DNA of 64,000 bases from Actinomadura sp. DC4 (GTDB lineage: Bacteria > Actinomycetota > Actinomycetes > Streptosporangiales > Streptosporangiaceae), in contig NZ_JAUEQY010000032.1 in NCBI RefSeq assembly GCF_030406325.1, positions 62,001 to 126,000 of the forward strand, read 5' to 3'. Numbering within the stretch: the first letter of the stretch is position 1; each line of letters starts with the position of its first letter. Positions 9,645-51,088 of this stretch are shown here, one piece after another. The notes beneath the pieces are model-generated. The model did not search any database, had not been told where the DNA came from, and saw only the letters and a list, made by a program, of their open reading frames with translations. The translations under genes and the position numbers were made by a program.

Positions 9645-10943
9645 TCAGTTCAGCAGAAGGGCCGTGTCCCAGCCGGTCCTCGAAGGTTCGTCGTTCGCGT
9701 AACCATGCAGCGCGAGGGCGACGCCGGCCGCGCCTTCCAGGAAACCCGCCCGGTCCGGTGCGACCGCCGCGTCGGCCCCCGCGGCGTACCGGAAGCCGAA
9801 CGGCGCGTCGGGGTCGAAACAGCCGATGACCCGGCGAGCGAGCCCATCGGCCGCTTCCAGCAGGTCGGCGGCGTCGCCGTCGGAGGCCATCAGGCGCGTG
9901 ATGTGCAACATGCCCGCCCAGCCATGGCACAGGCCCGCGTCGATCATGTCCCACTCCTCCCAGGGACGCGCCAGCACGCGGCGTAGCACCGAGACCGCCG
10001 TCTCCCGCCATGAGGGCCGGTCGAGCGCGATGCCGGCCAGCTGGAGGGCACGGGCGATCCCCGGCACGCCGTAGCACCAGCTCGGGCGGTCGGGCCGTGC
10101 CGATCCGTCCGGGCCGCGCAGCTGCCGGTGGAGGCTGACGACCGGTGGCCATGAGGCCTCGTGCAGCCATTCCAGCAGCCACGCGACGATCGCCTCGATC
10201 GCCTCCTCGTGTCCCGGCAGGCGCAGCCCGTCACGGTGGGCGATGGCCAGCAGGGCCAGCGGACCCGCGATCCCGTGTGCCAGACCGAGGTTGAAGTGGC
10301 CTTCTCCGTCGGGTGTGTTCTTCAGCGGAGCGTGGGACACCCACCAGCCGGGCACGCGTACGCCCGCGACCTCCACCGGCTCGGTGAGAGCGATGAGGTA
10401 GCTCACCGCCGGCTCGGCATCGCCGGTGCCCAGCAACAGCCGGCCCAGGCCGCTGAGCCCCTGCACGACGTCGTACGCGGCGAAGCCGGTGCCCGGCCGT
10501 CCGGCGGCGATGCGCGCGGTCTCCTCTCGGGCTCGTTCGCCCGCGGCGGCGCGGAGCTCCGGTTCGGCACGGCCGAGCAGGTTCGCGTAGTCGCCGGGCC
10601 GCGTCACCGCCGCCCGCGTGGCGAACACCACGGCGGGCAGGCCGGCGAACAGGCCGCTTCGACCGGGCATCGCGGCTCTGGCCCCCAGGGACAGGTACAC
10701 GTGCGCGGCCGGCCGGTCGCCCAGCTCGGCATGCAGCAGCGCGACCCCGAGACATCCCTCGTTCAGGGCGGCCGGATGCCAGGTCGCGGGTGTACGGCCG
10801 TCCGGGAACCGGTCGACGGCGGCCTCGGTGATCCGGGTGACGGCGGCCGGGTCGGCCAGCCTCCGCGCCACCTCCGCGACGATCGCCGCCGCGTCCGTCC
10901 GCACTGCATGGGCGGCGCCTGTCGTCATCTGCCCCGGCCTCAC
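9645..10943 (-). CDS. lanC: LanC-type lanthipeptide cyclase (first copy)
   Basis: The 432-residue protein is a class I lanthionine cyclase homolog. Zinc ligands are visible as Cys290 in SWCYGVPG and Cys339-His340 in LCHGWAG, with the LAHG motif at 221-224. LanC enzymes add cysteine thiols to dehydroalanine or dehydrobutyrine to close (methyl)lanthionine rings. The GTG start overlaps the LanB stop in GTGA, so the pair is co-translated. A second, shorter LanC copy lies on the opposite strand, so the two may handle different rings or steps. Confidence 0.9.
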   Translation of the reverse strand: MRPGQMTTGAAHAVRTDAAAIVAEVARRLADPAAVTRITEAAVDRFPDGRTPATWHPAALNEGCLGVALLHAELGDRPAAHVYLSLGARAAMPGRSGLFAGLPAVVFATRAAVTRPGDYANLLGRAEPELRAAAGERAREETARIAAGRPGTGFAAYDVVQGLSGLGRLLLGTGDAEPAVSYLIALTEPVEVAGVRVPGWWVSHAPLKNTPDGEGHFNLGLAHGIAGPLALLAIAHRDGLRLPGHEEAIEAIVAWLLEWLHEASWPPVVSLHRQLRGPDGSARPDRPSWCYGVPGIARALQLAGIALDRPSWRETAVSVLRRVLARPWEEWDMIDAGLCHGWAGMLHITRLMASDGDAADLLEAADGLARRVIGCFDPDAPFGFRYAAGADAAVAPDRAGFLEGAAGVALALHGYANDEPSRTGWDTALLLN

Positions 10944-13912
10944 TTCGCGTGCCGTTCTCTGCCCAGCAGAGCCTGGAGAGCACCACGCGCGATCGCGTAC
11001 GAGGCGCCCTCCGCGTCCGGCGCCGCCCCGATGAGCCGGTTGTGGTGCATGTGCAGCAGCGCGTGCAGCGGGGTGCGGTGGTTCAGTGATCGGATGAGAC
11101 GGCCGTACGCGGCCACGGCGGTCCGGCGGCGCCCCCAGATCTCGGTCAGGCGAGCGTCGAGGTCCCGCCCGTCGATGACCTCGATCGCGGTTCGGCGTAT
11201 CGCCTGGAATGCCGGGTGGTGCTCGCCCTTCGGGTAGGCGTGCAGGAACCAGTCTCGCCAGTCCGGGTCGCCGAAGCCGCGTACCAGGTCCACGTAGTTC
11301 GCGGCCGCGAGCAACTCGGGCCGCATGGACAGGCGCAGGCGTAGCTGCTCGATCACGGCCTCGCTGTCCGCCTGGAATACCCGCTCGGCCGCCTCCAGCG
11401 CCTCCGGCCCGCCGTACCGTTCGACCTCGGGCTCATAGGTGTCGAGCACCAGGGTCCGGGCGAGCCCGGACCGGCACAGCTCCGCCGCCCAGTCGTGCAC
11501 CAGCGGCAGGACGTCGGCGTTCAGGCGATCCGGGCTGCCGTGGAACCGGAGTCGAAGATGCGGTTCGGGATCGAAGTACCGGATGAAGAACCACCGATCC
11601 ACCGACGGCGGAAGTGACGCCCGCAACGTCGGCAGCCGCCGGCCGATCAGGTCCGTGTGCCGATCGGCGGAGGCGTACAGCTTGGCGAACAGCCACTCTC
11701 CCCCCGGCCGGTGCGCCGACGGGCGGTCTCGGACCGTCGCGGACGTACGGAGGGCGGGCTCGGGAGAGCCGGTGCTCAGCGTGACGACGATCTCGTTGGC
11801 GCGCCCGTTCGACCATCCGGTGCCGAAGCCCTCCCCACCGGGCGACTCGACGAGCAGCGTGCTCGGGCGGCGGCCGAGCTCATGGCGGAGGATTCGCCGG
11901 TGCAGTGGCGCGTCGAGGTCGAGCCCGATGCGGTTGTCGCCGTTCGTCATGAACACCTCAGCGGGCACGCGCCAGCGCTCGCGCCAGGCGTCGAGGCGCC
12001 GCGACCATTCCGACTCGGTCAGCCCGGCGTCGATGAGGCCAACGTCGGGCCGCCAGGTGGCGGAGGCCAGGATCGTACGGCCATGGCGGACCCGGGGCAG
12101 GAACGGCAGCATCGCGTCGAGTTCGCCCCAGGTCCACGCGTTGCACGCCCGAGCGCGGGCATCGGTGATGTCGTAGAGAAAGCGGGCGACCTCCGGGCCG
12201 ACACGGCTCACGACGAGCATGTGAACGGTCGTCGGAGCGATCTCGGCGTCACGGGCCGGCGAGTATAGGAACAGGCGTCCGTCCGCCGCGCCGACGACCA
12301 GGTCGTCAAGGTCGATCACCGAGGGGCCGCCCGGGTCGGCGAACGTTCCGACCGGCAGGCTGTGGTCGGTCAGCAGCGGCACTCGGGCCACATTGGAGAC
12401 CCGCGTCCAGTTCGCCTGGAACGTGAGCTGTGGCCGGACGGTTCGGTCGTCGTTCAGGATCCGGCGGGTCTGGTCGCGAAGACCGTCGAGGAGGTAAACG
12501 AAGCGGCCGCTCAGCGCGCCCGCCCGGCGCGACAGCGGCATCGTCGCCAGGGCGAGACGGAAGTCGCCGTTCTCCAGCGCGGTCACCGACTCGGCCAGGA
12601 CATGGGCTCCGATCTCCAGCGTCGGCGGTACGCGGCCGTCGTCGGTGCCGGAGAGGCGCTCGATCATCGCCGCGTCGAGTTCGACCTCGTGCACTCCGTC
12701 GAGCAGCGCGCGCTGCGCGAGCTCGCCGAAGACGCGTTCGCGATATCTGTCCGGCTCCGGCCGGGAGACGTTACGGGTCGACGTGCGATAACCGGCCGGG
12801 GTGCCGAGTCCCTTCTCCGAATCCAGGAGCTCCTTCACCGGCACCAACCGGCCGGTCCCGTACCTGTCCATGAAGTCGTCGTAGTAGGCGCGCATGTGGG
12901 GAGCGGCGCGGTCGGGCGGGGTGACGCGAGTCAGTACCGCGGCGACGGACTCGAGTTCTTCGGCCACCGCCCAGGGAAGCGTGACCTCGGCGTCGAGTCC
13001 CACGTCCACGTGGGGGGCGTGCTGCTTGTCACCGAGCCGCCGGGTGGTGCGGAGGACGTCGTTCCACGCCGTCAGCCCCTCGGCCATCGGCGTCGCCGCG
13101 TAGGTGTCCAGCGCGGCGGCCGCCTCTTCGAGCCCGGCCCCCTCACCTGGGGGAAGCCGGTCGAGAACGTGCCGGACGGGGTCGGCGTCGTCGGGGGGTA
13201 TCAGCTCGGTGAGCAGCAGGTACCGCTCGATGAGCTGGAGGAGCACTCGCTCCACGGCATCCGGTGAGCCCTGGGGGAAGACCGCGCGCAGGTGCTCGGC
13301 CAGCTCGGTGAACGGCACCGGGCGGCGGGCTCGTTCGATCACCGCCTCGAGCACCGGCGTACGGCGCACGGACACCTCGATCGCGGGTCCGTCGTCGCCC
13401 ACGGGCAGGTGGGGCAGGACGAGCCGGTCGCCACGGATGAAGCAGAGGTTGTTGCGGACCACCCGCAGGCGCCGTACGACCTCGGGCCGGTGTTCCCAGT
13501 CGCGTACCAGGGCGTGCAGCCAGCCGACGTCCGGCCTCGCGCGCTTACGGTGGTCGTCGCCGAACTCCACCTTGGCGGCGTGGTCGAAGTGCGCCTCGGA
13601 CACCCCGGCCATGACGCCGAAGGGCGTGGCCCGGGTCGCCATGCGAAGGACGTAGCGGGACACCGAGACCACGGCGCGCCGCAGCTTCTTGGGATCGACC
13701 GGGCGCCCCGCCTCCAGCGCGTCGAGCGTGTGCGTCAGCGACGGGCTGGACACCGCGATCGCCTCCCGTACCAGCGGGTCGGCGATCAGCGAGCGGAGAT
13801 ACCCGACCGGGTCATCTCGATCGCTCCGGGTCCGTGCCGCCGAGTCCGCCGACAGAACGCTCATCCGCACCAGCACGCGTTCGGCGGCCTTGAGTCTCGG
13901 CATATCTGTCAT
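10940..13912 (-). CDS. lanB: LanB-type lantibiotic dehydratase, full length
   Basis: The protein has 990 residues from the ATG at 13912, which has a GGAGAG ribosome binding site 8 bases upstream; a longer frame to 14101 lacks one. It has the large N-terminal glutamylation region (RVLVRMSVLSAD, RYVLRMATRATPFGVMAG) and, from about residue 738, the SpaB-type elimination domain (EWLFAKLY, RWFFIRYFDPEPHLRLRF, YEPEVERYGG). LanB enzymes glutamylate Ser/Thr of the precursor using glutamyl-tRNA and then eliminate glutamate to give dehydro residues. The substrate is probably the LanA encoded divergently at 14120. Confidence 0.93.
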   Translation of the reverse strand: MTDMPRLKAAERVLVRMSVLSADSAARTRSDRDDPVGYLRSLIADPLVREAIAVSSPSLTHTLDALEAGRPVDPKKLRRAVVSVSRYVLRMATRATPFGVMAGVSEAHFDHAAKVEFGDDHRKRARPDVGWLHALVRDWEHRPEVVRRLRVVRNNLCFIRGDRLVLPHLPVGDDGPAIEVSVRRTPVLEAVIERARRPVPFTELAEHLRAVFPQGSPDAVERVLLQLIERYLLLTELIPPDDADPVRHVLDRLPPGEGAGLEEAAAALDTYAATPMAEGLTAWNDVLRTTRRLGDKQHAPHVDVGLDAEVTLPWAVAEELESVAAVLTRVTPPDRAAPHMRAYYDDFMDRYGTGRLVPVKELLDSEKGLGTPAGYRTSTRNVSRPEPDRYRERVFGELAQRALLDGVHEVELDAAMIERLSGTDDGRVPPTLEIGAHVLAESVTALENGDFRLALATMPLSRRAGALSGRFVYLLDGLRDQTRRILNDDRTVRPQLTFQANWTRVSNVARVPLLTDHSLPVGTFADPGGPSVIDLDDLVVGAADGRLFLYSPARDAEIAPTTVHMLVVSRVGPEVARFLYDITDARARACNAWTWGELDAMLPFLPRVRHGRTILASATWRPDVGLIDAGLTESEWSRRLDAWRERWRVPAEVFMTNGDNRIGLDLDAPLHRRILRHELGRRPSTLLVESPGGEGFGTGWSNGRANEIVVTLSTGSPEPALRTSATVRDRPSAHRPGGEWLFAKLYASADRHTDLIGRRLPTLRASLPPSVDRWFFIRYFDPEPHLRLRFHGSPDRLNADVLPLVHDWAAELCRSGLARTLVLDTYEPEVERYGGPEALEAAERVFQADSEAVIEQLRLRLSMRPELLAAANYVDLVRGFGDPDWRDWFLHAYPKGEHHPAFQAIRRTAIEVIDGRDLDARLTEIWGRRRTAVAAYGRLIRSLNHRTPLHALLHMHHNRLIGAAPDAEGASYAIARGALQALLGRERHAK

Positions 13913-14119
13913 GCAGCATCTCTCCGTGCACGCTGATTGAACTCTGCCATCTGACCGGGTCGGTAAATTGAATCGACGCCGATATCCGGCCAAGAAGGTA
14001 TCAGGGAATTGGCCGAGAAGGCCCGCATTTGTGAGGTCAGCGATCGGTAAGCGCCGGATGGCAGACTTCTCGACGCGCCGCCACACTGCGGCGTTCTTCA
14101 ATGACTGAAAGGAAATCGA

Positions 14120-14338
14120 ATGCCGCCGGTCGCATCTCCCGATATGGATAAAAGCATTTTCGATCTGGACATCGAATTGCTGATGGAGTCGGACTCCGTC
14201 ACCCCGATTCAGTCCTGTAGCGGTAGTGAGAACACCTGCGGGACGCAGGTGTCCTGGAGCGGTACCTGTGGCGCGACGCAGGACTGCGGGACCTGCAGCC
14301 CCACGTACGGCGCCATGGCTCCCGGCATGTGCATTTGA
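14120..14338 (+). CDS. lanA: Class I lanthipeptide precursor
   Basis: The 72-residue precursor has an AAAGGAAA ribosome binding site before ATG 14120. Residues 14-17 are FDLD, the class I leader recognition motif (FNLD box). The probable core starts around Ser32 after TPIQ, by analogy with a proline close to the cleavage site in nisin-type leaders. The core holds six cysteines (33, 40, 50, 56, 59, 71) and twelve Ser/Thr and ends MCI. Cleavage site and ring topology are inferred. LanC2 starts inside its last codons. Confidence 0.88.
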   Translation: MPPVASPDMDKSIFDLDIELLMESDSVTPIQSCSGSENTCGTQVSWSGTCGATQDCGTCSPTYGAMAPGMCI

Positions 14339-15450
14339 TCGATGCCGTACGGCGAGCCGCCGCCAGGAAGATCGCTACCGAGGTGGCGGCTCGCCTGGCT
14401 CGCCGGGGAACACGCGAAGGCACGGCACCGAGAGGACACCGGCCGGATCACCTCGGATGCGCACAGCTTTATGCGGCGCTGCACCGGCTCGAGCCCGAGG
14501 CCGGTTGGGACGAGATCGGCCAGCGGTTCCTGGAACGCGGGCTCACGCCGGCCGGACCGGCCGGGCTCTTCACCGGCGGCCTCGCCGGCCTCGGCGTCGC
14601 AGCCGCGCTTCTCAAAGGACGGACCGGTCGCTACGGGGGCCTCTTGGCGAAGGTGGACGGGGCGATCGCTCTGGTGGAAGACCATGATCTCATCGAGGGA
14701 GTCACGGGCGTCGGGGTGTACGCGCTGATGCGGCCACTGCCGTCGAAACGGCAGGCCGTGATCCGCGCCCTGGCGGAGGCCGCCGCCGGCGACCCGCCGT
14801 TCCACGTGCCGCCGCATCGGGTTCCTCCGGCCTGGTCCCTGCCCGCGGGCTATGCCGACTGCGGCCTGGCCCATGGCGCCGCGGGCCCGCTCGCGCTCCT
14901 GGCCCTGCTCAGCGAGGAGTGCGCCGACGTACCCGCCCGTACGCTCGTGCGGATCGCGGACTGGCTCGTGGACACGGCGCACACCGATGAGTACGGCCTG
15001 GCGTGGCCGGCCGGAATCGCGGGGCGGGACCGGCTGCCGTCGCCGCGCCGGGCGTCGTGGTGCTACGGCGTCCCCGGGACCGCCCGTGCGCTCTGGCTGG
15101 CCGGACGGGCCCTGAACGAGCCCGCGTACCAGAGCATCGCCCGCGAGGCGATGACGGCGTTGCTCGACCATCCGGAGGCGTGGGGCATCGGCACTTCGCC
15201 GAACCTCTGCCACGGACTCGGCGGGCTGTTGCTGGTCACGGCGGCCTTCGCGGCCGATGACACGCGGTTCGCCACGGCCGCGGACGATCTGCTCGGCCGG
15301 ATCCTCGATGCCTTCGACCCGGACCTGCCGCTCGGCTTCGACACCGACGGCGAGGGCCTGCTGACCGGTGCGGTGGGCGTCGCGCTGACGCTGCTGGCGG
15401 CGACCGGGGACTCACCGGATCCGGCCGCCCGCCCGTTCCTGGTGGCGTGA
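14329..15450 (+). CDS. lanC: LanC-type lanthipeptide cyclase (second copy)
   Basis: The 373-residue protein is shorter than LanC1 but keeps Cys245 in SWCYGVPG, Cys294-His295 in NLCHGLGG and the LAHG motif at 181-184, so it should bind zinc. The GTG at 14329 overlaps the end of lanA by 10 bases. The missing length is in the N-terminal half, before the GLFTGGLAGLG repeat. It may act with LanC1 on the same peptide. Its close link to lanA suggests it is the primary cyclase. Confidence 0.88.
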   Translation: MHLIDAVRRAAARKIATEVAARLARRGTREGTAPRGHRPDHLGCAQLYAALHRLEPEAGWDEIGQRFLERGLTPAGPAGLFTGGLAGLGVAAALLKGRTGRYGGLLAKVDGAIALVEDHDLIEGVTGVGVYALMRPLPSKRQAVIRALAEAAAGDPPFHVPPHRVPPAWSLPAGYADCGLAHGAAGPLALLALLSEECADVPARTLVRIADWLVDTAHTDEYGLAWPAGIAGRDRLPSPRRASWCYGVPGTARALWLAGRALNEPAYQSIAREAMTALLDHPEAWGIGTSPNLCHGLGGLLLVTAAFAADDTRFATAADDLLGRILDAFDPDLPLGFDTDGEGLLTGAVGVALTLLAATGDSPDPAARPFLVA

Positions 15451-17396
15451 TGGGACGCCACCGCACGGGTACCACGGCCGAGGCGGCCCGCGACGAACTC
15501 TTCGGATCCGGCATCCGCCTGTCCATCGGTCAGCTCCGCCATGAAGGTGCCGGTCTGCGGGTCGGCTTCCTCGCGATGGTCCGCGAGCTGCCGCGGCTGA
15601 TGGCCGTCACGATCCGGCTGGGGCGGGCATCCGCACCCGGGGCGCTGGCCGGCATCGTGATCGCGGAACTCGTCGGGGGCGTCGCGACCGCGGTGACGCT
15701 GATGGCGACCTATCGCGTCCTCGTGCCGCTGATGGCCGGCGGGCCGTCCCGGGATCGGCTCCTCGCCGCCGCGCCCGCGTTGGTCGCGATCGCCCTGGCC
15801 GCCGGGACGGCCAGCCTGATGCGCGCGTGCAGCAAGGCCGCGGCGAGCCGCCTCGGCCCACGGGCCGAGCGCCTGGCCTACACGCGGCTGCTGGAGAGGG
15901 CCGCGAACGTGGAAGTCGCCGCCCTGGAGGATGCCGGTTTCCACAACCTGCTGGGAGCGGCCCGGCAGGGCACCCGGGCGACCCGGATCGTCATCACGAA
16001 CGCGGTCGCGCTCCTCACGGGCCTGACGAACCTGGTGGCCTCCGCCGGTGTTCTCGCGGTGCTGCACCCGCTCCTGGTGCCGTTGCTCATGGCGACGATC
16101 GCGCCGAAGGGCTGGAGCGCCGTACGGGCCGCGCGGGCCAGGTTCGCCTCGGCCAAGCGTTACATGGACCTGACACGTCAGCTCGAAGTCCTCGGTGACC
16201 TGCTCAGCAGCCCGAACACCGGCCCGGAGATCCGGGCGCACGGCGCCGCGCCGTACCTGCTCGCGCAGTACGACCGGCTGTCTTCGGTGGCCGAGGAGGA
16301 ACAGGAACGGCTGGGCCGCGCAGAGGCGCGCGGCCTGCTGGCCGGTGACGCGTTGTCGGGGCTGGCGAGTGTGGCGACCTACGCCGCACTCGGCGCGCTC
16401 CTCTTCATGGGGACCGTTCCGCTCGCGGTGGCCGGGGCGGCGGTGATGGCCATCCGGACCGGCCGGACGAGCCTGATCGGTCTCATCATGTCGACCAACC
16501 AGATCTACGAGCAGGGACTGTTCATCCTCGAGTGGGAACGGGCGTGCGGCGAGGCGGAGCAGCGGGCCATGCGCACCGGCGAGCTGGCGCTCCCGCCGCA
16601 TCCGGTCGAGATCCGCGCCAGGAATCTGAGCTTCGTCTATCCGCACAAGACGCGGCCGGCGCTGGACGGTGTCGACGTCGTGATCCGGCCGGGCGAGATC
16701 GTGGCGTTCGTCGGGGAGAACGGTTCGGGCAAAAGCACCCTGGCCAAGCTGCTCTCCGGCCTCTACCTGCCGAACAGCGGGCAGGTGACCTGGGGCGGGG
16801 TGCCCATCGAGCTGCTGGACCGGCGAAGCGTCTTCGAGCGGGTCGCCCTGGCCGCGCAGGACTTCCCCCGCTGGCCCTTCACCGCTCGGGTCAACCTGAC
16901 CATCGGCCGTACCGATCACACCGGCGACCGCGAACGCCTGTGGTGGGCCGGGCTGGCCAGTGGCGCCGCCACCGTGGCCGCGTCGCTGCCCGACGGCTGG
17001 GACACCCTGCTGGCCCGGGAGTTCATGGGGGGCACCGAGCTGTCCGGTGGGCAGTGGCAGCGCATCGCCCTCGGGCGAGCGTGGTTCCGTGACGCGCCCG
17101 TTCTCGTCTTCGACGAGCCGACCTCCTCCCTTGATCCCCGGGCGGAGGCGGAGATCTTCGAAAAGGTCGGGTCCCTGGCCGCGGACGGCCGGGCGGTCAT
17201 CCTCATCACTCATCGGCTGGCATCTGTTCGCCGCGTGGACCGGATCTACGTCCTGCGGCAGGGAAAGGTCATCGAGCACGGCTCGCACGAAAGCCTGATG
17301 GCCGACGACGGCACGTACGCCGAGATGTACCGGCTGCAGGCCGAGCAGTACGCGCCGCTCCCCACAGCCGACGACAAGAAGGAGTTCTCGCAGTGA
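15447..17396 (+). CDS. lanT: ABC transporter with fused membrane and ATPase domains (LanT-like)
   Basis: The 649-residue half-transporter has membrane helices at roughly 70-330, then an ATPase domain with Walker A GENGSGKST, signature LSGGQWQRIALGRA, Walker B VLVFDEPTSSLD and the H-loop ITHRLAS. No N-terminal C39 peptidase is present, so it can export but not trim the leader. It starts within the lanC2 stop (GTG 15447 or ATG 15450) and is followed by an overlapping JmjC gene. It is probably the lanthipeptide exporter. Confidence 0.88.
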   Translation: MMGRHRTGTTAEAARDELFGSGIRLSIGQLRHEGAGLRVGFLAMVRELPRLMAVTIRLGRASAPGALAGIVIAELVGGVATAVTLMATYRVLVPLMAGGPSRDRLLAAAPALVAIALAAGTASLMRACSKAAASRLGPRAERLAYTRLLERAANVEVAALEDAGFHNLLGAARQGTRATRIVITNAVALLTGLTNLVASAGVLAVLHPLLVPLLMATIAPKGWSAVRAARARFASAKRYMDLTRQLEVLGDLLSSPNTGPEIRAHGAAPYLLAQYDRLSSVAEEEQERLGRAEARGLLAGDALSGLASVATYAALGALLFMGTVPLAVAGAAVMAIRTGRTSLIGLIMSTNQIYEQGLFILEWERACGEAEQRAMRTGELALPPHPVEIRARNLSFVYPHKTRPALDGVDVVIRPGEIVAFVGENGSGKSTLAKLLSGLYLPNSGQVTWGGVPIELLDRRSVFERVALAAQDFPRWPFTARVNLTIGRTDHTGDRERLWWAGLASGAATVAASLPDGWDTLLAREFMGGTELSGGQWQRIALGRAWFRDAPVLVFDEPTSSLDPRAEAEIFEKVGSLAADGRAVILITHRLASVRRVDRIYVLRQGKVIEHGSHESLMADDGTYAEMYRLQAEQYAPLPTADDKKEFSQ

Positions 17397-18592
17397 CGGC
17401 ACTCTCCACTCTCATCGGGGACGTCGACGAGTTCTTTTCCCGGCATCTCGGAAAAGCGGTGCTCCACAGACCGGGTGCCGCGTCGAAGCTCCAGAACCTC
17501 GTCTCGGCCGAGGACATCGACCGGGTTCTCACCGGAAGCGCGCTTCGTACGCCTGGCATCCGGATCGCCAAGGACGGGGCCGTCATCCCGGCGGACCGTT
17601 ACGTGTCGAAATCGACGCTCGGGTACGCGGATCTCGGCGACGTCGTCGACCCGGTCAAGGTCGTCCGGTTCTTCCGCAACGGTGCGACCATCGTGCTGGG
17701 TACGGTCAACCTGCTGCTGCCTCACCTGCACGCGCTCTGCAAGGACATCGAGACGGATCTCGGGCACCCGGTGGACGCGAACATCTATGTCGCGCCGCCG
17801 CACGCGCGTGCCTTCGAAGTCCACTGCGACGCCCAGGACATCATCATCATTCAGATCCACGGCGGGAAGCGGTGGGAGCTGTTCGACGCGATCGCGGCGA
17901 ATCCCGGCGGCGGAAAGGTCGTCTCCGATCCGGGCGCCTCGTCGTCACTGTACGAACTCCAGGAAGGCGACGTGCTGTACGTGCCCCGGGGCATGCCGCA
18001 CCTGGTCCGCACGGCCGACTCGTCATCCATTCACCTGACGATCAGTATCAACACGCTGACCTGGGCCGATCTCCTTCGCGGCATGGTGCTGGAGATCCTC
18101 CGGTCCGACGACTTCGCCGGCGCGTTGCCGCTGGGCCGCGACGTCGCCGAACGGGCCGCGCCGATGGTGAAGAAGCATGCGGACCTGCTCTTCGCGGCGG
18201 TGATCGACCGCGCGGACCCGGAGGCCGTGCACCGGATCGTCTACGGCAGGACCGCGTTCGGCGACGGGCTCCAGACCGGCCTGTTCCAGCAGGCGCTGCT
18301 CGACGCACCGATCGCCCTCGCGGACCGGATCTCGTTGCGGCCGGGAACCTGGCCGGTGACCGACGACGACGAGCGAATAACGGTTGGAGACAGCCGATTC
18401 CGCCTGCCGCAGGAAGCCGCCGAGACGTGTCGCCGCCTGGGGAACGGGCCGATGAGGGTCGGCGATATCTCCGCTGTGGCGGACGAGGCGCTCGAAATCG
18501 CGGCCACGCTGGTCACGCTGGGCCTCTGCACGACCTGTCGCCCCTCGGCCGTGGCCGGACAGGAGTCCGGCCGGCACGGCGAACCGACGTGA
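17393..18592 (+). CDS. JmjC/Cupin_4-type iron/2-oxoglutarate oxygenase
   Basis: The 399-residue protein has the JmjC fold signature: iron ligands His144 and Asp146 in EVHCDAQD, the HGGKRWEL segment and a distal His203 in VPRGMPHLV. The C-terminal part resembles the winged-helix tail of ribosomal-oxygenase-like Cupin_4 proteins. The GTG start overlaps the ABC transporter stop by 4 bases, placing it in the lanA operon. A hydroxylase acting on the lanthipeptide is likely. Asp55 or Asn38 of LanA are possible targets, which is inference. Confidence 0.82.
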   Translation: MTALSTLIGDVDEFFSRHLGKAVLHRPGAASKLQNLVSAEDIDRVLTGSALRTPGIRIAKDGAVIPADRYVSKSTLGYADLGDVVDPVKVVRFFRNGATIVLGTVNLLLPHLHALCKDIETDLGHPVDANIYVAPPHARAFEVHCDAQDIIIIQIHGGKRWELFDAIAANPGGGKVVSDPGASSSLYELQEGDVLYVPRGMPHLVRTADSSSIHLTISINTLTWADLLRGMVLEILRSDDFAGALPLGRDVAERAAPMVKKHADLLFAAVIDRADPEAVHRIVYGRTAFGDGLQTGLFQQALLDAPIALADRISLRPGTWPVTDDDERITVGDSRFRLPQEAAETCRRLGNGPMRVGDISAVADEALEIAATLVTLGLCTTCRPSAVAGQESGRHGEPT

Positions 18593-18682
18593 AGCCGATG
18601 TGAAACGGCGGCTTGTTAACTTCCGTCACAGCGAAGGGCAATGGCAACCGGCTGTTGGCCTCGTGGATGGAAGGAGAAACAG

Positions 18683-18763
18683 ATGGACAAGCTCGAGGTG
18701 ACTTCTCTTCCGGAGATCCCACTCTCAGTGCAGGCGTCGTCGGCCACGGTGTTCAGCGGCTGA
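18683..18763 (+). CDS. 26-codon candidate RiPP precursor
   Basis: ATG 18683 is preceded by AAGGAGA with 6-base spacing and opens a 26-codon frame starting MDKLEVTSLP and ending ASSATVFSG. The next gene, 10 bases after its stop, is an HExxH-motif peptide-modification protein, and an MFS exporter follows. The strong ribosome binding site, the operon position and the Ser/Thr-rich tail fit a minimal precursor peptide. It is very short and has no cysteine, so lanthionine chemistry is excluded. It could also be a translational-coupling leader, but that is less likely given the neighbour's own ribosome binding site. Confidence 0.6.
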   Translation: MDKLEVTSLPEIPLSVQASSATVFSG

Positions 18764-18773
18764 GAGGCATCTG

Positions 18774-19697
18774 ATGGAGCTGCATTGGCAGCCCGATCCG
18801 GCGAGAGCGCGGCTCGAACGTGCCGCGCTCTCCCGTTTTCTCGGGACGCAACTACAAGAACTGTTCGGCTGGGAGCCGCTGGAGCTGGAGCAGGAGCTCG
18901 GGGGAGACCTTGTTCATCCGGTGACGACCTCGATCGCGTACGCGAAAAAGAACGGCGTTTCTCTGTCTCTTCCCAGGCAGGCCATGGTCCGCGCCATCGG
19001 CGAAAGCCGCAGTCGGGCAGAGAAGGGCGTGACGGGCGGATCGTTCGCGGTTGATCTCCTTCCTCTGGACGAGACGGTGATGGCGGCCACCCTCGACCGG
19101 CACGTGGACATGGCACGGCGAATGGGCGACGTAGAGACGATCAGCTTTCACCGGCCCGAAGAAATAGAGCCCGACGACGCCCTCCGCGAGGCTCGCCGGC
19201 TGGTCGGCGACTACTGGCCTGCGATGCTGGCGGAAATGTCGGTCACCCTCTCCTGCCTGACGTTCTTCACCGCAGGGAGGGCAATAGGCTTCGCCGACAT
19301 CTATACCCATGGGCTGATAGCACTCCGGGCGATCGAGCTGACGGCGCCGCTGGCCAAACTGGCAGAGGAGATCGTTCACGAATCCTCCCACGTACGCCTG
19401 AACAGCCTCCTCGCCAGCACGCCCTGCCTCCTCGACGACGGAGGCAAGGTCTATGAGACCCCGCTACGGGAAGATCCGCGCCCCGCGGCCGGTCTGCTCC
19501 ACCAGCTGTTCGTCCTCGCGCGACTCTGCGAATGGCATGACCGACTGGGCGAGCGCGCCATTCCCGAGCGGGTGACGGAAGCGCGCGAAGACTTGATCGC
19601 CGCACACGCCGCCGTCTGCGCCGAGCTTCCGTTGACCGAGGCCGGGCGAGCACTCGTATCAACGATCGAACCCCGCCGAGTACCAGAATCGTCATGA
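18774..19697 (+). CDS. HExxH-motif peptide-modification protein
   Basis: The 307-residue protein carries EEIVHESSHVRLN, with the metal-binding HESSH at residues 202-206, in the setting of the RiPP-associated HEXXH family (TIGR04267-like). My recollection is that some members have been described as iron/2-oxoglutarate peptide hydroxylases rather than proteases; I cannot verify that here. The ATG has GAGAGG upstream. The gene lies between the 26-codon ORF and an exporter whose ATG overlaps its stop. It probably modifies the small peptide and could also act on LanA, whose operon ends just upstream. Confidence 0.75.
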   Translation: MELHWQPDPARARLERAALSRFLGTQLQELFGWEPLELEQELGGDLVHPVTTSIAYAKKNGVSLSLPRQAMVRAIGESRSRAEKGVTGGSFAVDLLPLDETVMAATLDRHVDMARRMGDVETISFHRPEEIEPDDALREARRLVGDYWPAMLAEMSVTLSCLTFFTAGRAIGFADIYTHGLIALRAIELTAPLAKLAEEIVHESSHVRLNSLLASTPCLLDDGGKVYETPLREDPRPAAGLLHQLFVLARLCEWHDRLGERAIPERVTEAREDLIAAHAAVCAELPLTEAGRALVSTIEPRRVPESS

Positions 19698-20908
19698 CCC
19701 TCACCCAGGTCGCGACGGCGGCCAGAACGCCACTACCCCGCGACTTCAAGAAGTGGTTCTGCGGCACGATCATCGCCACAACGGGAAACGTCGCCTTCTC
19801 CGTCACCTTGCAGTGGACGGCGACCACTCACGGTGGGATCGTCGCGGGAGTCGTGCTGGCGTGCGGCACCGTCCCGCAGATGATCCTCCTGCCGATCGGA
19901 GGCGCCGTCGCGGACCGGGTGGGCGTGCGCCGTGTCATGCTCATCACCCTGGTGTCAGAGGTATTGGCGTCACTGAGCCTGGCCGCCGTCGTCGTGGCCG
20001 CGGGCCCGGCCGTGTGGGTGCTGATCTCGTACAGCACGATCATCGGAGCCGGCAACGGCTTCCATCTTCCCGCCACGACCTCGATGGTTCGCAGGCTGGT
20101 AGAAAAGGATCAGCTGCCGCGTGCACACGCCACTCAGAAGGCGGGCCAGCAGATGGCCGCGTTCGCCGGTGCCCCGCTGGGCGGCCTCATGGCGACCGCC
20201 GGCGGCCTCGTGGGAGCGGCGCTCATCAATGCGATGGCCTGCGTCCTGGTCATCGTGACCCTGCTGGGCGTCCGGCCGGCACTGACGCCGCCACCATCAG
20301 AACCGCGGGCAAGCCTGGGCCGCGAGGTCCGGGACGGGATACTGCTCGCGGCACGCGACCCGCTGCTGCGGCCTTCGTTGCTCGTCATGGCCGCGACAGC
20401 CGCGTTCTTCGCCCCCGTGGCGCCCCTGCTCACCCCACTGCTCGTGAGGATGCACCACTGGGAGGCGACCGCGGTCGGGTGGCTCATGGCCTCCCAGGGC
20501 ATGGCCTTCTTCCTTCTGGCGATCCTGATCTCGCGCCGCGGTGCGCTGAGACGTCTGGGGCTCACCTCGGCGGCGGGAATCGCCGCGATGGGCGTGGGAG
20601 TCGGCATCATCGCCCTGACGCCCACCTTGGCCGTCGGGATCGCCGGAGCGTCGGTGGCCGGCCTGGGCTACGGCCTCGCCGCCACCCACCTCACCCCACT
20701 GGTGATCAACGCGTCTCCCCACTCGCATCTGTCTCGCACCGCAGCCGCGATGACCCTCGTTCAAAACCTCAGCGTCGTGATGACGTTCGCGCTGGCCGGA
20801 GGGCTCGCTGAGGCGACCGATCCCGGCACGATCGCCCTGATCGACGGGCTCCTCCTCACCGCCATCGGCATCGCGGCGCTTACTTCCCGTTCCTTCCGGC
20901 GAGCCTGA
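19694..20908 (+). CDS. MFS exporter
   Basis: The 404-residue protein has about 12 hydrophobic helices and the MFS loop GGAVADRVGVRRVML. It resembles the MFS_3-type drug exporters. Its ATG overlaps the stop of the HExxH gene (ATGA). In this position it probably exports the modified peptide or provides self-resistance. The gene ends 64 bases from the convergent oxidoreductase gene, with no clear hairpin in between. Confidence 0.82.
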   Translation: MTLTQVATAARTPLPRDFKKWFCGTIIATTGNVAFSVTLQWTATTHGGIVAGVVLACGTVPQMILLPIGGAVADRVGVRRVMLITLVSEVLASLSLAAVVVAAGPAVWVLISYSTIIGAGNGFHLPATTSMVRRLVEKDQLPRAHATQKAGQQMAAFAGAPLGGLMATAGGLVGAALINAMACVLVIVTLLGVRPALTPPPSEPRASLGREVRDGILLAARDPLLRPSLLVMAATAAFFAPVAPLLTPLLVRMHHWEATAVGWLMASQGMAFFLLAILISRRGALRRLGLTSAAGIAAMGVGVGIIALTPTLAVGIAGASVAGLGYGLAATHLTPLVINASPHSHLSRTAAAMTLVQNLSVVMTFALAGGLAEATDPGTIALIDGLLLTAIGIAALTSRSFRRA

Positions 20909-23126: not shown

Positions 23127-24365
23127 TCAGACGGATGTCGGGTCCCGGCGGGACCAGTGCTGCCAGCTGAAGAGGATCATCACAGCGGCGATGGGTATCG
23201 CGCCGAACAGCATGGGGGCACGGATTCCCGCGGAGCTCGCCAGCGCGCCGCCGGCCATGGCGCCCACGACCTCCGCGCTGCGGCTGACCGTGAGGTACAG
23301 CCCGGAGACGCGGCCGAGCATCCCCGCGGGTACCTGTCGCTGTCGCATCGTTACCGCCGTGATGTTGAACAGGGCGAAGGCGCCGCTGCTGGTGAACAGC
23401 ATCACTGCGGCGACGACGACGTTGCCGGTGAGGCCGAGCCCGGCCTGGGAGAACGCCATTGCCAGCCCGGCGGTCAGCAGTGTGGGCCAGGACCCGAGGC
23501 GCCGCAGGACACGGGCTCCGGCCGCGCCGATCGCTATCCCGCCGAGTGCTCCAACGACCAGCAGCAAACCGTAGGCACTGGCCCGCTGATGCAGGATCTG
23601 GATCACGTACAGGACGAGCACCGCGAACCAGGCGGCATCCATCGCGCACACTACGGCAGAGGCGATCGTGACGTTCCGCATCTCAGAATGCCGCCACAGC
23701 CACCGCACGCCCTCGCGAAGGTCGCGGCCGATGGCCACCAGGGGTGACACCTGGTCCTGCCCGGCCGGCTTCTGTGACACCGGCTGGAAAACGCTCGGTA
23801 GCGTGAGCAACAAAAGCACGCCGATTCCCAGCGTCCCGGTGTTGATGGCGAAAGGCAGAACAGCGGCCAGGCCGAACAGCCAGCCGCCTGCCGCGGGTCC
23901 CGCCAGTTCGTTACCCACGATCTGCCCGGTGACCACCCGTGCGTTGGCCCATTCGAGGTCGGCGGGCTCGACCAGACGGGGCACGCAAATAATGGCCGCG
24001 GTCCCGCGCAGCGCCGAACCTGTCCCTGTGATGAACGCCGCCAGGTAGATAAGTCCGAGTCCGGCGTGATGCGCAAAGATTGCCACCGCCACACCCGAGA
24101 CGATGACGGCTCGTGCACTGTCCACGATCACCATGAGCAGCCGACTGTCGCTGCGGTCGACAATAACGCCGATCCCCGCGCCCATCAGCAGCCAGGGGAG
24201 TTGCTGGACAGCCGTGACCGCGGCTACCGCCGTTGGTGAGCGGGTGAGCTGGGCGGCAAGAAGGGGAAACGCCGCCAGCCGGATACCGTCGCCGAAATCG
24301 GAAAGAAAGCCCGAGAGCCAGTACCAGGAAAAAGGCTTCGATAATCTGCGTATATACGCAACCAT
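23127..24365 (-). CDS. MFS transporter, paralog of 49638-50882
   Basis: The 412-residue protein has 12 helices and starts with a membrane segment YWLSGFLSDFGDGIRLAAFPLLA that is nearly repeated in the paralog at 49.6 kb. The loop IGVIVDRSDSRLLMVIVDSARA is the MFS_3-type motif. It lies 7 bases after the stop of the ATP-grasp gene in the same operon. The pair probably exports the product or intermediates of the second cluster. Confidence 0.83.
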   Translation of the reverse strand: MVAYIRRLSKPFSWYWLSGFLSDFGDGIRLAAFPLLAAQLTRSPTAVAAVTAVQQLPWLLMGAGIGVIVDRSDSRLLMVIVDSARAVIVSGVAVAIFAHHAGLGLIYLAAFITGTGSALRGTAAIICVPRLVEPADLEWANARVVTGQIVGNELAGPAAGGWLFGLAAVLPFAINTGTLGIGVLLLLTLPSVFQPVSQKPAGQDQVSPLVAIGRDLREGVRWLWRHSEMRNVTIASAVVCAMDAAWFAVLVLYVIQILHQRASAYGLLLVVGALGGIAIGAAGARVLRRLGSWPTLLTAGLAMAFSQAGLGLTGNVVVAAVMLFTSSGAFALFNITAVTMRQRQVPAGMLGRVSGLYLTVSRSAEVVGAMAGGALASSAGIRAPMLFGAIPIAAVMILFSWQHWSRRDPTSV

Positions 24366-25823: not shown

Positions 25824-26771
25824 TCAGTCCTTGGTGTCTCCCAGCCGGGCCTGCTCGTCCCCGGAGGAGAGAACCTTCTGGCCCCTCATGATGTACTCCG
25901 CCACCTGCAGCGGAGGCAGGGCCTCGCCGGTCCGCGCGACGCAGTTCGGAGCGGGTGTCACGGTCGTGTCCCGCGCGGGGTCGAGGTAGAAGATGGCCGA
26001 CTGGCGCCGCGGGATCGTCGCGCCCGCGTCGGGCGGGTACACCACCCGGTGCTCATTGGCGTGGATCACCCGGTTGGTCCACCTGGCGAGCAGGTCTCCG
26101 GGCTGGATGAACACCGCGTCCGGCGGGAGGACGACGGGCAGCCAGTCGTCCTCGGGCGTGTGCGGGCGCCGGATCTGCAGCCCACCGGGGTCCTTCCTGG
26201 CCGTGAGGATCGTGATGCCGTCTTCGTCGGTGTGCGGGCTGAACCGTACCTGCCCGGGCAGCGGCGCCTGGTTCCTCGCCGGGTAGTTGTTCGCCGCCAG
26301 GCCGCAGTAGGGCCGTTCCGTCCAGGCCGCCACATCCTCCCGGGGGAGGTCCAGCTCGGCGGCGACCATGTCGATCACCCGGGTGGACAGGTCGCGGAAC
26401 AGCAGGAAGACCGCCAGCCACACCGACCGCATCCGGGCCGGCCGCTCGGGCCACAGGCCGAAGGACTCGAACTCATATCCCTGGAACCACTCGACGAGAT
26501 CGGGAACCACCCCGGGCTCGACGAGGTCCGGGTCGCCACGGTAGATCGGCACCCATCCCTGCCACAGGCCCTCCCCGGGCGAGCGGACCTTGGCCTTCTC
26601 CTGCTCGGGCAGGTCGAAGAACTCGGCCGAGACATCGGCCAATTCCTGCTGGAGCTCCTCGGGGATCCCATGGCCGGTGAGCAATACGCACGACCAGTCG
26701 ATCAGGGCCTGGGTCAGCTCGCCGGCGCTGGTCGTGGCCAGGTCGAGGACTGGGACGGTGGCAGCTGTCAT
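25824..26771 (-). CDS. Isopenicillin N synthase-like Fe(II) oxygenase, copy 1
   Basis: The protein has 315 residues from ATG 26771, with a GGGAGAAGGG ribosome binding site. Iron ligands are His180 and Asp182 in SPHTDEDG and His241 in NEHRVVYP. The co-substrate RxS motif is Arg256-Ser258 in PRRQS, so it is probably 2-oxoglutarate-dependent. It is about 75% identical by eye to copies at 41.7 and 51.1 kb over core blocks (FFDLPEQEK, WQGWVPIYRGD). It heads the operon with the ATP-grasp and MFS genes. Confidence 0.88.
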   Translation of the reverse strand: MTAATVPVLDLATTSAGELTQALIDWSCVLLTGHGIPEELQQELADVSAEFFDLPEQEKAKVRSPGEGLWQGWVPIYRGDPDLVEPGVVPDLVEWFQGYEFESFGLWPERPARMRSVWLAVFLLFRDLSTRVIDMVAAELDLPREDVAAWTERPYCGLAANNYPARNQAPLPGQVRFSPHTDEDGITILTARKDPGGLQIRRPHTPEDDWLPVVLPPDAVFIQPGDLLARWTNRVIHANEHRVVYPPDAGATIPRRQSAIFYLDPARDTTVTPAPNCVARTGEALPPLQVAEYIMRGQKVLSSGDEQARLGDTKD

Positions 26772-27102
26772 CTTGCTGGCCCTTCTCCCTTGCCGGTGGC
26801 GAAGCGTGAACGATAGCGAGGAGCCGGCCCGGTGGCTTGTCGATGGTCCGGGCGTTAAATAGAGGCCCATTCAAGGCCGGTCTTACGAATATTTAACTTC
26901 AGTCTTACGAATGGGACAGGAGCCGTCAAGTGGCCCTGAGCTGCCGTAGCGAGGTTGCCCGATCGAACGACGCGGCATCCACCACAACGGCCGACCACTC
27001 CGGTCCTTGGCTCCGGGGAGCCAGCCGTGCATACTTGTGACTGCTGCGCGGGCGGAAGGACGCTGGATCGAGGCCCGCAAGACGGTTTGGAGGACGCCAG
27101 GA
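26772..27102. promoter_or_regulatory. Divergent control region with direct repeats, oxygenase copy 1 / carbamoyltransferase
   Basis: GTCTTACGAAT occurs at 26880-26890 and again at 26902-26912, exactly 22 bp apart, so the two copies lie on the same face of the helix. Tandem repeats with 11 or 22 bp periodicity are the binding-site pattern of SARP activators, but no SARP gene is in the window. A 13-mer CCCGGACCATCGA (minus strand, 26840-26852) recurs upstream of oxygenase copy 3 at 51017-51029. No ORF is credible in this 331-base gap. Confidence 0.5.
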
Positions 27103-28896
27103 GTGTGGATTCTCGGCCTTTCCTGCTTCCGAGATGATGCGACGGCCGCCTTGCTCAAAGATGGCGCGGTGGTGGGCATCTCGGAGGAGGAGCGTTTCCT
27201 GCGTGTGAAGCACGCTGTGGAGCGGCCATCGGGAATTTTCGTGTCCTCGCTCGGCGAATCAGAGGCGCTCGACGGCTTCGAGCTCCGCTACTTTCCGGAA
27301 CAAAGCATCAACTACCTGCTGTCCGAGGCGGAAATCGGACTCACGGACGTCGACATCGTCGCGTACGACTTTGATTTCGACCGGCGGATCAGACAGTGGG
27401 ACCGTTTCCTTCCGGTCAGTGAGTTAGCGTCCGCGCGCCAAAATGAGCAATCCGTGGCGGCGCTGCGGTACTGGCAGCGAATGCTGGCGGATTTCGCCGA
27501 GCGCTGCGGGGCTCGGCTGGAATACGTGCCGCACCACCTGGCGCACGCGAGCGGCACCGTGTTCGGCTCCGGCTACCGGGAAACAGCGTTCCTGGTAATG
27601 GACGCGCTCGGTGAACTCGAATCCAGCACGTTCGGCTACTTCGACGGCGACTTTCACGTCGCCCGGCAGGTCGCGCTTCCGCACTCGCTGGGCATTTTCT
27701 ACGCCGCGGTCACCAGTTTCCTCGGGTTCCGGCCGTTCAGCGACGAGCAGAAGACGATGGGCCTGGCCGCCTACGGTGACCCCGCGGTGTTCGCGGCCGA
27801 CTTCGGGAGGATCCTCCACCCGGCCGCTGATGGATTCGCGACCGACCCGGACGCGATGTGGGGCAGCGACGTGATCGAGATGGACCGCCCGCCCCCGCTG
27901 GCCGGTGTCCTCGGCGTGCCGGCCGGCCCGTCGGCCGCCGAGGTCTGCCGTCCTCCCTACACCCACGTCGCGGCCGCCTCGCAGCAGGTCCTGGAACGCG
28001 TCGTGAACCACCTCGCCGACCAGGCCCTGGCCACCACGCGCAGCCGGCGACTGTGCCTGGCCGGGGGAGTGGCCCTGAACTGCGCGGCCAACGGGACCCT
28101 GTTACGCAGGGGTGACATCGACGAGCTGTACGTCCAGCCACAGGCCGGTGATTCCGGGACGGCGCTGGGGGCGGCCTACTACGCCCATTTCCGCGCGTCC
28201 GGCAGCAGGCCGGAGCCGCTGCCCCACGCGTACTGGGGACCTGGTTACACCGGCGGCGAGGTCCAGGCGCTGCTCGACCGTCTGAAGCTCCCTTACCGGC
28301 GGATCGAGCAGCCCTGGGACGCGGCGGCGGAACTGCTCGCCGACGGCAACATCGTCGGCTGGTTCCAGGGCCGGTCGGAATGCGGTCCACGCGCGCTCGG
28401 CAACCGCAGCATCCTGGCTCACCCCGGGGACGTCGCGAACCGGCACCGCATGAACATGGTCGTCAAGGATCGGGAATGGTGGCGGCCGTTCGCGGCGTCG
28501 GTCCTCGACGAGCAGCGCTCGCGGTACCTGGCCATCGACACGCCATCTCCGTTCATGCTGCTCACCATCCCGCTGACCGAGCTCGGCCGGCGGGACCTGG
28601 CGGCGGCCGCGCACACCGACGGCACCACCCGGCCGCAGACGGTCTCCGCGGCGGCGAACCCGCGCTACCACCGCCTGATCCGGGCGTTCCAGGACCGGAC
28701 GGGTATCGGTGCGGTGCTGAACACCTCGCTGAACGTCAAGAGCGAGCCGATCGCCAACGACCCCGTGCACGCGATCTCCGACCTCTACACCACGGCGATG
28801 GACGCGCTGGTGATCGAGGACTTCGTGCTCGTCAAGCAGCCCTCCCCGGCAGGGCCACCCGAGCACCGGGCGGCCGGGGCCATGGTCCGGCCATGA
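27103..28896 (+). CDS. NodU/CmcH-type O-carbamoyltransferase
   Basis: The protein has 597 residues from GTG 27103, with GGAGG 9 bases upstream. The Kae1-like N-terminal domain starts VWILGLSCFRDDATAALL and holds HHLAHA at 144-149. The C-terminal domain has WFQGRSECGPRALGNRSIL, DREWWRPFAASVL and NTSLNVKSEPI. The family transfers a carbamoyl group from carbamoyl phosphate via carbamoyl-adenylate to a hydroxyl. Two TTA leucine codons (27424 and 28102) suggest bldA-type control. Its stop overlaps the start of the LanB-like gene, so carbamoylation is coupled to this operon. Confidence 0.93.
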   Translation: MWILGLSCFRDDATAALLKDGAVVGISEEERFLRVKHAVERPSGIFVSSLGESEALDGFELRYFPEQSINYLLSEAEIGLTDVDIVAYDFDFDRRIRQWDRFLPVSELASARQNEQSVAALRYWQRMLADFAERCGARLEYVPHHLAHASGTVFGSGYRETAFLVMDALGELESSTFGYFDGDFHVARQVALPHSLGIFYAAVTSFLGFRPFSDEQKTMGLAAYGDPAVFAADFGRILHPAADGFATDPDAMWGSDVIEMDRPPPLAGVLGVPAGPSAAEVCRPPYTHVAAASQQVLERVVNHLADQALATTRSRRLCLAGGVALNCAANGTLLRRGDIDELYVQPQAGDSGTALGAAYYAHFRASGSRPEPLPHAYWGPGYTGGEVQALLDRLKLPYRRIEQPWDAAAELLADGNIVGWFQGRSECGPRALGNRSILAHPGDVANRHRMNMVVKDREWWRPFAASVLDEQRSRYLAIDTPSPFMLLTIPLTELGRRDLAAAAHTDGTTRPQTVSAAANPRYHRLIRAFQDRTGIGAVLNTSLNVKSEPIANDPVHAISDLYTTAMDALVIEDFVLVKQPSPAGPPEHRAAGAMVRP

Positions 28897-37952: not shown

Positions 37953-37974
37953 CTCCCGGACGTCAGGCCGGGAG
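37953..37974. terminator. Bidirectional hairpin between convergent kinase and MFS genes
   Basis: CTCCCGG at 37953-37959 and CCGGGAG at 37968-37974 form a perfect 7-bp stem with an 8-base loop. The hairpin lies between the convergent stops and overlaps the last codons of the MFS gene. Confidence 0.55.
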
Positions 37975-41745: not shown

Positions 41746-42693
41746 TCAGTGCTTCGTGTCCTCCAGAAGCGCCCGCTCGTCCCCGGCCGAGTAGACCTGC
41801 TGGTTCTTCAGGATGTGGTTCCCGACGTGCAGCGGAGGCAGGACCTCGCTGGTCCGCGCGACACAGCTCGGCGCCGGTGTCACGATCGTGTCCCAGGCGG
41901 GGTAGTGGAAGAAGACGATCGACTGGCGTCGCGGGGTCGGCGTGCCCAGGCCGGGAGGGTTCACCACGCGGTGGTGATTGGCGTGGATCACCCGGTTGGT
42001 CCACCTCGCCAGCACGTCCCCGGTCTGGATGAACACGAACCCCGGCGGTATCAGGACCGGCCTCCAGTCATCCTCGGGCGTATGCGGGCGCCGGACCTCC
42101 AGCCCGCCGGTGTCGTTGCTGGACATGACCAGCGTGATGCCGTCCTCGTCGGTGTGCGGGCTGAGACGCACCTGCCCGGGCAGGGGCGCTTCGCGCCTCG
42201 ACGGATAGTTGTTCACCGCCAGGTCGCAGAACGGCCGTTCCGTCCAGGCCGAGACGTCCTCGTGCGGCAGGTCCAGCGCGGTCGCGACCATGTCGATCAC
42301 GCGGCTGGACAGGCCGCGGAACGACTGGAAGGCCTCCAGCCACACCGGCCGCATCCGGGCCGGCCGCCCCGGCCACAGATCGAAGGACTCGATGTCCTGC
42401 ACCTGGAACCACTCGACCAGGTCCGGGACCTGGCCCGGCTCGACGAAGTCGCGGTCGCCGCGGTAGACCGGCGCCCATCCCTGCCACATGCCGTGCGCTC
42501 GCGAGTGAACCCTGCCCTTCTCCTGCTCGGGCAGGTCGAAGAACTCGGCCGAGACGTCGGCCATCTCCTGCTGCAGCTCGTCGGGGATTCCGTGACCGCT
42601 GACCAGCACGCATGACCAGTCGACGAGAGCCTGGGTCAGCTCGTCGGGGCTCGTCACCGCCAGGTCGAGTACCGGGACAGTGGTGGTGCTCAT
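41746..42693 (-). CDS. Isopenicillin N synthase-like Fe(II) oxygenase, copy 2
   Basis: The 315-residue protein starts at ATG 42693, with GGAAAGGA upstream. Iron ligands are in SPHTDEDG and HHRVVNPP, and the co-substrate RxS is in PRRQS. It is the most divergent of the three copies: it has HSRAHGMWQGWAPVY where the others have RSPGEGLWQGWVPIY. It follows the condensation-domain gene by 16 bases, in the operon A-T didomain, C domain, oxygenase, so it may act on a carrier-bound substrate. Confidence 0.88.
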   Translation of the reverse strand: MSTTTVPVLDLAVTSPDELTQALVDWSCVLVSGHGIPDELQQEMADVSAEFFDLPEQEKGRVHSRAHGMWQGWAPVYRGDRDFVEPGQVPDLVEWFQVQDIESFDLWPGRPARMRPVWLEAFQSFRGLSSRVIDMVATALDLPHEDVSAWTERPFCDLAVNNYPSRREAPLPGQVRLSPHTDEDGITLVMSSNDTGGLEVRRPHTPEDDWRPVLIPPGFVFIQTGDVLARWTNRVIHANHHRVVNPPGLGTPTPRRQSIVFFHYPAWDTIVTPAPSCVARTSEVLPPLHVGNHILKNQQVYSAGDERALLEDTKH

Positions 42694-51029: not shown

Positions 51030-51088
51030 TTATCCGCCGGCCGGTCTTTCGTGACCACTCACGACCGGCATGGGAGAGGACCCGCGAA

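Follow-up and report, generated by a model that had tools for sequence, protein, structure and literature searches.

A 26-codon open reading frame (ORF) of Actinomadura sp. DC4, found in the 64,000-nucleotide stretch of DNA analysed here (the window), probably belongs to a minimal, self-standing RiPP cluster, which consists of the encoded precursor, one oxygenase that would β-hydroxylate its C-terminal core, and one exporter. The same three-gene unit (peptide, HExxH enzyme, and MFS protein) is found in Actinomadura macra NBRC 14102 and in genome G289, in agreement with the original prediction, in which the peptide had been tied to the two following genes as a RiPP candidate. The coordinates given there for the ORF, its ribosome-binding site (RBS), the 10-base gap, the HExxH gene, and the overlap with the MFS gene were all correct in the sequence (Table 1). 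An encoded precursor thus adjoins a peptide-modifying enzyme and both are conserved together, as in RiPP loci, and the unit appears to be among the most compact gene sets known for making a modified peptide natural product. The observations underlying this reading are a conserved coding ORF, its strict linkage to the enzyme and the exporter in the intact loci, an intact HExxH motif, a conserved operator-like repeat, a conserved hairpin, and a related family of matching plan.

Table 1. Features of the three-gene unit and its control region (positions in the window)
Feature	Position	Strand	Details and basis
SARP-type operator (putative), GTGAAGC + GTGAAAC, 11 bp start to start	18589..18606	+	Pattern GTGAARNNGATGTGAAR, kept in orthologues
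-10-like element GTTAACT, 8 nt after last heptamer	18615..18621	+	By eye; position and partial conservation
RBS AGGAG of precursor ORF	18672..18676	+	Sequence; AGGGGAA at the matching spot in A. macra and G289
RiPP precursor candidate MDKLEVTSLPEIPLSVQASSATVFSG	18683..18763	+	26 codons; ATG 18683, stop 18761-18763; orthologues in frame, enzyme co-occurrence, LPE box
RBS AGAGG of HExxH gene, overlapping precursor stop	18763..18767	+	Sequence
Alpha-KG-HExxH-type peptide beta-hydroxylase (predicted), 307 aa, short stand-alone form	18774..19697	+	TIGR04267
11-bp GC-rich RNA hairpin, putative attenuator or processing stem	18803..18832	+	Inside HExxH codons 10-20; 39 nt after precursor stop
MFS exporter (predicted), 404 aa	19694..20908	+	PF07690, TIGR00900; gene after enzyme in A. 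macra and G289 too

Coding evidence and conservation of the candidate precursor peptide

The orthologous peptides of A. macra (MDKLTVVTLPEIPLSQQRDGTVFGA, also given as MDKLTVVTLPEIPLSQQRDG-TVFGA) and G289 (MDKLTVVTLPEIPLSMQRDGGTVFSA, in frame) are each encoded 8 nt 5' of the orthologous enzyme gene. Start, frame, and stop are retained in the three peptide ORFs, and the sole difference in length is one codon (a 3-nt indel). A DNA pattern for KLxVxxLPEIPL matched three times in 342 family genomes, each time at the precursor locus before the enzyme, with no match of the reversed control pattern in the same genomes; the peptide motif (342 genomes) and the full-length orthologous enzyme (343 genomes) were found in the identical three genomes. 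Within the window, LPE[IFLY]xL is present in only one short ORF (20-45 aa; 901 start/stop combinations). The precursor peptides had no match in NCBIfam. Loci in which the ORF is missing or frame-broken had been named as the finding that would speak against the peptide; the ORF is present and in frame in two of two intact orthologous loci, and a further homologous locus, in genome G247, is a decayed copy from which both the peptide and the 5' half of the enzyme gene have disappeared. This remnant (L043, G247:C1:582591-582986) is 84% identical to the enzyme over residues 176-307, and after it comes the beginning of the MFS gene.

Codon-level conservation, the other check proposed for the ORF, is borne out for the N-terminal part, with pN below pS over codons 1-17 in all three pairs (pN/pS, 0.19/0.36 for window-A. 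macra, 0.15/0.58 for window-G289, and 0.05/0.33 for A. macra-G289), whereas over the whole peptide pN and pS hardly differ between the window and A. macra (0.29/0.32), a pair not clearly constrained because residues 16-21 diverge. A reading-frame test with shuffled alignment columns gave p 0.023, the other two frames being negative and stop-containing. A chance ORF is ruled out by the orthologues and by the co-occurrence with the enzyme. A longer version starting at 18641 (40 aa) is likewise ruled out by an in-frame TAG 12 nt 5' of the equivalent ATG in A. macra, where the longest ORF at the precursor position has 25 aa. Judged from these comparisons of sequence, in which a single genus supplies two of the three intact loci, the 26-aa peptide is a real coding gene, conserved in related soil bacteria and overlooked by normal annotation. 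The remark that it falls below most known precursors in size needs qualification: 26 aa is small but not unusual, as RiPP precursors span roughly 20-110 aa (PMC12707348), with the biarylitide precursors reported as the smallest (PMC12951456).

The N-terminal part of the peptide, containing the LPEIPL box, is a putative leader, and the C-terminal part (Q17...TVF) a putative core. In the C-terminal tails, SVQASSATVFSG in the window, SQQRDG-TVFGA in A. macra, and SMQRDGGTVFSA in G289, the conserved features are Gln17 and a Thr-Val-Phe sequence followed by small residues, which places Phe third from the C-terminus in all three (TVF-SG, TVF-GA, and TVF-SA). The Ser/Thr-rich C-terminus pointed out beforehand is not conserved in this alignment and has to be given up as a feature; the absence of Cys, also pointed out, extends from the window peptide to both orthologues. 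The 26-aa peptide therefore lacks the combination of Ser/Thr and Cys in the core expected of a lanthipeptide, and the ends of the three peptides (VFSG, VFGA, and VFSA) do not conform to an FxSxx C-terminus. An AlphaFold model from two sequences (window and A. macra) had a pLDDT of 43 and was unused for fold searches.

The HExxH enzyme, the exporter, and their orthologous loci

The assignment of the second gene to an HExxH family of peptide-modification enzymes holds up, with a score of 79.3 bits against TIGR04267 (E 3.3e-22; cut-off, 40); Pfam gave no match for the enzyme. The HESSH motif occupies residues 202-206 (19377-19391), and both the P[LW]RxDxRPxxGLL block and HExxH are intact (TPLREDPRPAAGLLHQ / TPLREDPRPAAGLL, aligned to ChlH), so that the protein is not an inactivated form. 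Among solved structures, a profile built from the enzyme and four relatives matches ChlH (8s5f, E 9.4e-16). The orthologous enzymes are 71% (A. macra) and 72% (G289) identical, and in the tree the window-type enzymes, three in all, group in a single clade (96/91). The YcaO-type enzymes described below are placed in another clade of that tree, along with two enzymes that lack YcaO and sit on long branches; long branches make the deeper nodes uncertain. A plasmid search returned distant relatives only, none with >80% coverage. The exporter matches PF07690 (E 1.2e-32) and TIGR00900 (E 5.8e-35). The precursor stop is separated by 10 bases from the HExxH ATG at 18774, and the HExxH and MFS genes overlap by 4 nt.

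No lanthipeptide genes adjoin the unit in A. macra or G289; there, a divergent SARP regulator gene is present instead. The genes common to both flanks are the SARP, peptide, HExxH, and MFS genes and one gene of unknown role; the two genomes also have a 40% pair of AraC-like genes, on different sides of the unit. Neither a second tailoring enzyme nor a protease is encoded among the genes conserved beside the unit in these two genomes, nor is a radical SAM gene, as expected of the FxsA/FxsB type, among those conserved beside the enzyme.

Operator, hairpin, and genomic setting

Upstream of the peptide are heptameric direct repeats with an 11-bp period, located 5' of the putative promoter as in SARP-controlled operons and fitting SARP sites as described in PMC10972967; repeats of the form GTGAAGC-N4-[AG]TGAAA number two in the window, two in A. 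macra, and three in G289. The pattern given in Table 1 has one exact match in the 10.7-Mb genome (window 18589) and one more with one mismatch; with up to two mismatches allowed, it has one match in the window. This SARP-type repeat (18589-18604), with its single exact match in the genome, suggests that the unit has its own promoter. The counterpart of the -10-like element in the alignment with A. macra and G289 is GATACT, and a sigma-70 consensus scan found no promoter. An orthologue of the SARP gene (66-69%) is present in the window's genome at G000 C30:129925, unlinked and in an unrelated context.

The hairpin at the start of the enzyme gene (-30.1 kcal/mol, z -4.4) is the strongest local fold in the operon and is present in 3/3 orthologues (window, A. 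macra, and G289). Synonymous identity of the enzyme gene is 48/56 in codons 1-22 versus 401/601 elsewhere (Fisher p 0.0026), a difference to be read with the proviso that the 5' ends of genes may be otherwise constrained. Precursor is commonly made in excess of enzyme by means of a stem lying between their two genes. The YcaO-type loci also have a strong hairpin immediately 3' of the precursor ORF, which is intergenic there and in which differing sequences form long GC stems.

The upstream neighbour of the unit (to 18592) is a lanthipeptide operon containing LanB, two LanC, an ABC transporter, and a JmjC protein. This class I operon (window 9645-18592) has LanC-like genes at 9645-10943 (minus) and 14329-15450 (plus), LanB at 10940-14101 (minus), and a precursor at 14144-14338 (MDKSIFDLDIELL...CSPTYGAMAPGMCI). 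Since the first SARP heptamer shares bases with the JmjC stop codon, the lanthipeptide operon seems to have come to lie right next to the promoter of a unit that was already there.

On the other side of the unit, window 23000-58500 contains repeated cassettes around a LanB-like gene (28380-31244), including, by eye, 2-oxoglutarate oxygenase-like genes (25824-26870, 41746-42693, and 50996-52036) and MFS-like genes (23127-24365, 37963-39252, and 49638-50882), as well as similar gene pairs (42710-44023/53399-54655 and 31163-32677/48105-49631). This repetition suggests a large duplicated biosynthetic region.

Related short HExxH-YcaO clusters

When 395 class-level and 393 Streptomyces-level genomes were searched by profile, a set of short HExxH enzymes emerged that align over the full length, N-terminal part included; the YcaO-type group of these is inferred to be mostly Streptomyces, the genus name being our own reading. 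A 24-30-aa ORF (e.g. MNEEIEQIPEEELPELALMVDIPS, MEERDDFEVEPVEAELPEFALMVDVPD, and MQEVRELEIEVVGEEELPEFALMVDIPDDD) lies 5' of the enzyme in 19/20 YcaO-bearing loci, its product having the motif ELPE[FLY][AG]LM[VI]D[VIL]P, and the box LPE-[IFLY]-x-L is common to both precursor families. These ORFs are under strong protein-level purifying selection: in the 12-codon block ELPE..LM.D.P of 14 YcaO-type peptides, mean pS is 0.48 and mean pN 0.076, with 166/26/375 substitutions at codon positions 1/2/3. The enzyme gene is followed by one for a SagD-like YcaO, and at L047:1456-3702 the short HExxH enzyme and a YcaO domain make up a single fusion protein of 748 aa, encoded 3' of a 30-aa precursor. A methyltransferase gene then follows in the wider regions examined (daptide-type matches at L044 and L046; a similar gene at L050).

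These HExxH-YcaO clusters are apparently undescribed (L048:1330-1404 with L048:1495-3656; also L002, L039, L047, and L051-L065); neither a YcaO-HExxH-methyltransferase cluster nor the window precursor family was found described in the open-access literature searched. Because the peptides lack Cys, we propose that the YcaO of these clusters may make an amidine or another backbone change. The chances are about even that the window unit and the HExxH-YcaO clusters of Streptomyces represent the two branches of a single undescribed RiPP superfamily, whose 24-30-aa precursors carry an LPE-[IFLY]-x-L recognition box that short alpha-KG-HExxH enzymes read directly through their N-terminal domain; on this view, the window branch is a complete pathway with a single modifying enzyme.

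Proposed maturation and alternative explanations

We infer that the peptide is the substrate of the enzyme, a view strongly supported by gene linkage. In the 26-aa peptide, the N-terminal half, where the LPEIPL box lies, would be the leader recognized by the enzyme, whose Fe(II)/alpha-ketoglutarate HExxH centre would then β-hydroxylate at least one residue of the C-terminal core. Family members hydroxylate RiPP precursors at the β-carbon of Asp, His, Phe, Gln, or Pro; PflC and PosC, which also cut the backbone, require the N-terminal leader part (PMC12636437, PMC13060819). In biphenomycin biosynthesis, BipH is responsible for the β-hydroxy group carried by the C-terminal aromatic residue of a core that is encoded as FRFRS at the precursor end (PMC12707348). 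Because Phe is kept where the target of the biphenomycin HExxH enzyme sits, third from the C-terminus, the conserved Phe24 is tentatively proposed by analogy as the hydroxylation site, with a probability that we put slightly short of even, and Gln17 is the second most likely site. Host peptidases would remove the leader, and the MFS protein would export the small product. A SARP activator presumably switches on the unit from its own promoter, and the hairpin may lower enzyme expression relative to that of the precursor.

Four other explanations were considered. That the enzyme modifies the adjacent class I lanthipeptide, alone or in addition, as had also been suggested originally, is very improbable: the adjacency, with the JmjC gene ending at 18592, is seen in the window only, the orthologous units are without lanthipeptide genes while the unit has its own SARP-type repeat as a putative operator, and such a role is therefore unsupported; in addition, the lanthipeptide precursor lacks the LPE box, and its operon has a JmjC protein of its own. 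The position of the ORF, ending 10 nt before the enzyme gene and followed by the strong hairpin, would also suit a regulatory leader peptide (attenuator uORF) of the HExxH-MFS operon, with the hairpin as attenuator and the peptide not a substrate. We regard this as improbable, since the amino-acid sequence is conserved and contains no stretch of a single repeated residue, the related clusters retain the LPE box though their hairpin sequences differ, Rfam found nothing, and the region around the ORF itself is less stable than shuffles (z +1.9).

The remaining two concern the extent of the chemistry. The precursor may also be modified by enzymes encoded elsewhere (e.g. a radical SAM enzyme or YcaO in trans), making the unit a partial pathway; other alpha-KG-HExxH enzymes do partner a cyclophane-forming or MNIO enzyme (PMC12636437, PMC13060819), the related short HExxH clusters carry YcaO and, where examined, a methyltransferase, and the window's genome has further HExxH loci. 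Against this stands the lack of a second tailoring enzyme conserved beside the unit in A. macra and G289, and we consider a partial pathway rather unlikely. Somewhat less likely again is that the enzyme both hydroxylates and oxidatively cleaves the backbone near the C-terminus, releasing an amidated product without a protease. PflC and PosC of the same family hydroxylate Gln and cut the backbone leaving an amide (PMC12636437), the conserved unit has no protease gene, and the Ser/Gly/Ala residues after Phe24 may be likened to the Ala cut in PflC/PosC; however, the precursor has no ARMD-like motif, is far smaller and without a long NHLP-type leader, and the biphenomycin and PesO enzymes are reported to hydroxylate only.

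The self-standing cluster with a single hydroxylating enzyme is thus preferred. Alpha-KG-HExxH enzymes have only recently been shown to be oxygenases, and the characterized cases covered here all act with other modifying enzymes. If the preferred reading is true, one enzyme and a 25-26-aa precursor would constitute a very simple system for the choice of residue and the reading of the leader. The 24-30-aa ORFs of Streptomyces suggest, moreover, a group of RiPP clusters hidden by precursors below the usual gene-length cut-offs.

Comparison with known systems

The YcaO-bearing relatives resemble the streptamidine family (ami clusters) in that YcaO is accompanied, in actinomycetes, by small precursors with little Ser/Thr/Cys that the usual annotation overlooks, and differ from it in that the streptamidine-type precursors have 31-89 aa with an ALV motif and no HExxH enzyme was found in the available text of PMC8442711. 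ChlH and the fused radical SAM-HExxH enzymes (ChlBH; Fxs-type) share a homologous catalytic domain with the window enzyme, as judged from the match to 8s5f, but are reported to depend on a radical SAM-made cyclophane, whereas the window unit has no radical SAM gene and its peptide no FxSxx C-terminus. A stand-alone alpha-KG-HExxH enzyme is also found in PesO of the nitrilobacillin cluster, which hydroxylates Pro of a RiPP precursor, but PesO acts with an MNIO, a nitrile synthetase, and M16 peptidases. The PflC/PosC clusters of Pseudomonas likewise combine a stand-alone enzyme of this type with a leader-bearing precursor and encode no protease; unlike the window unit, they have a long NHLP-type leader, a poly-Gln core with an ARMD end, an MNIO-nitroreductase partner, and a GNAT. 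The biphenomycin pathway has a 41-aa precursor together with an MNIO, a B12 radical SAM enzyme, an arginase, a JmjC protein, and a TldD protease, in contrast to the conserved unit, which has none of these; its BipH/BpmH nevertheless belongs to the same enzyme family and targets the third-last residue, an aromatic one, of a short precursor that ends in FRFRS.
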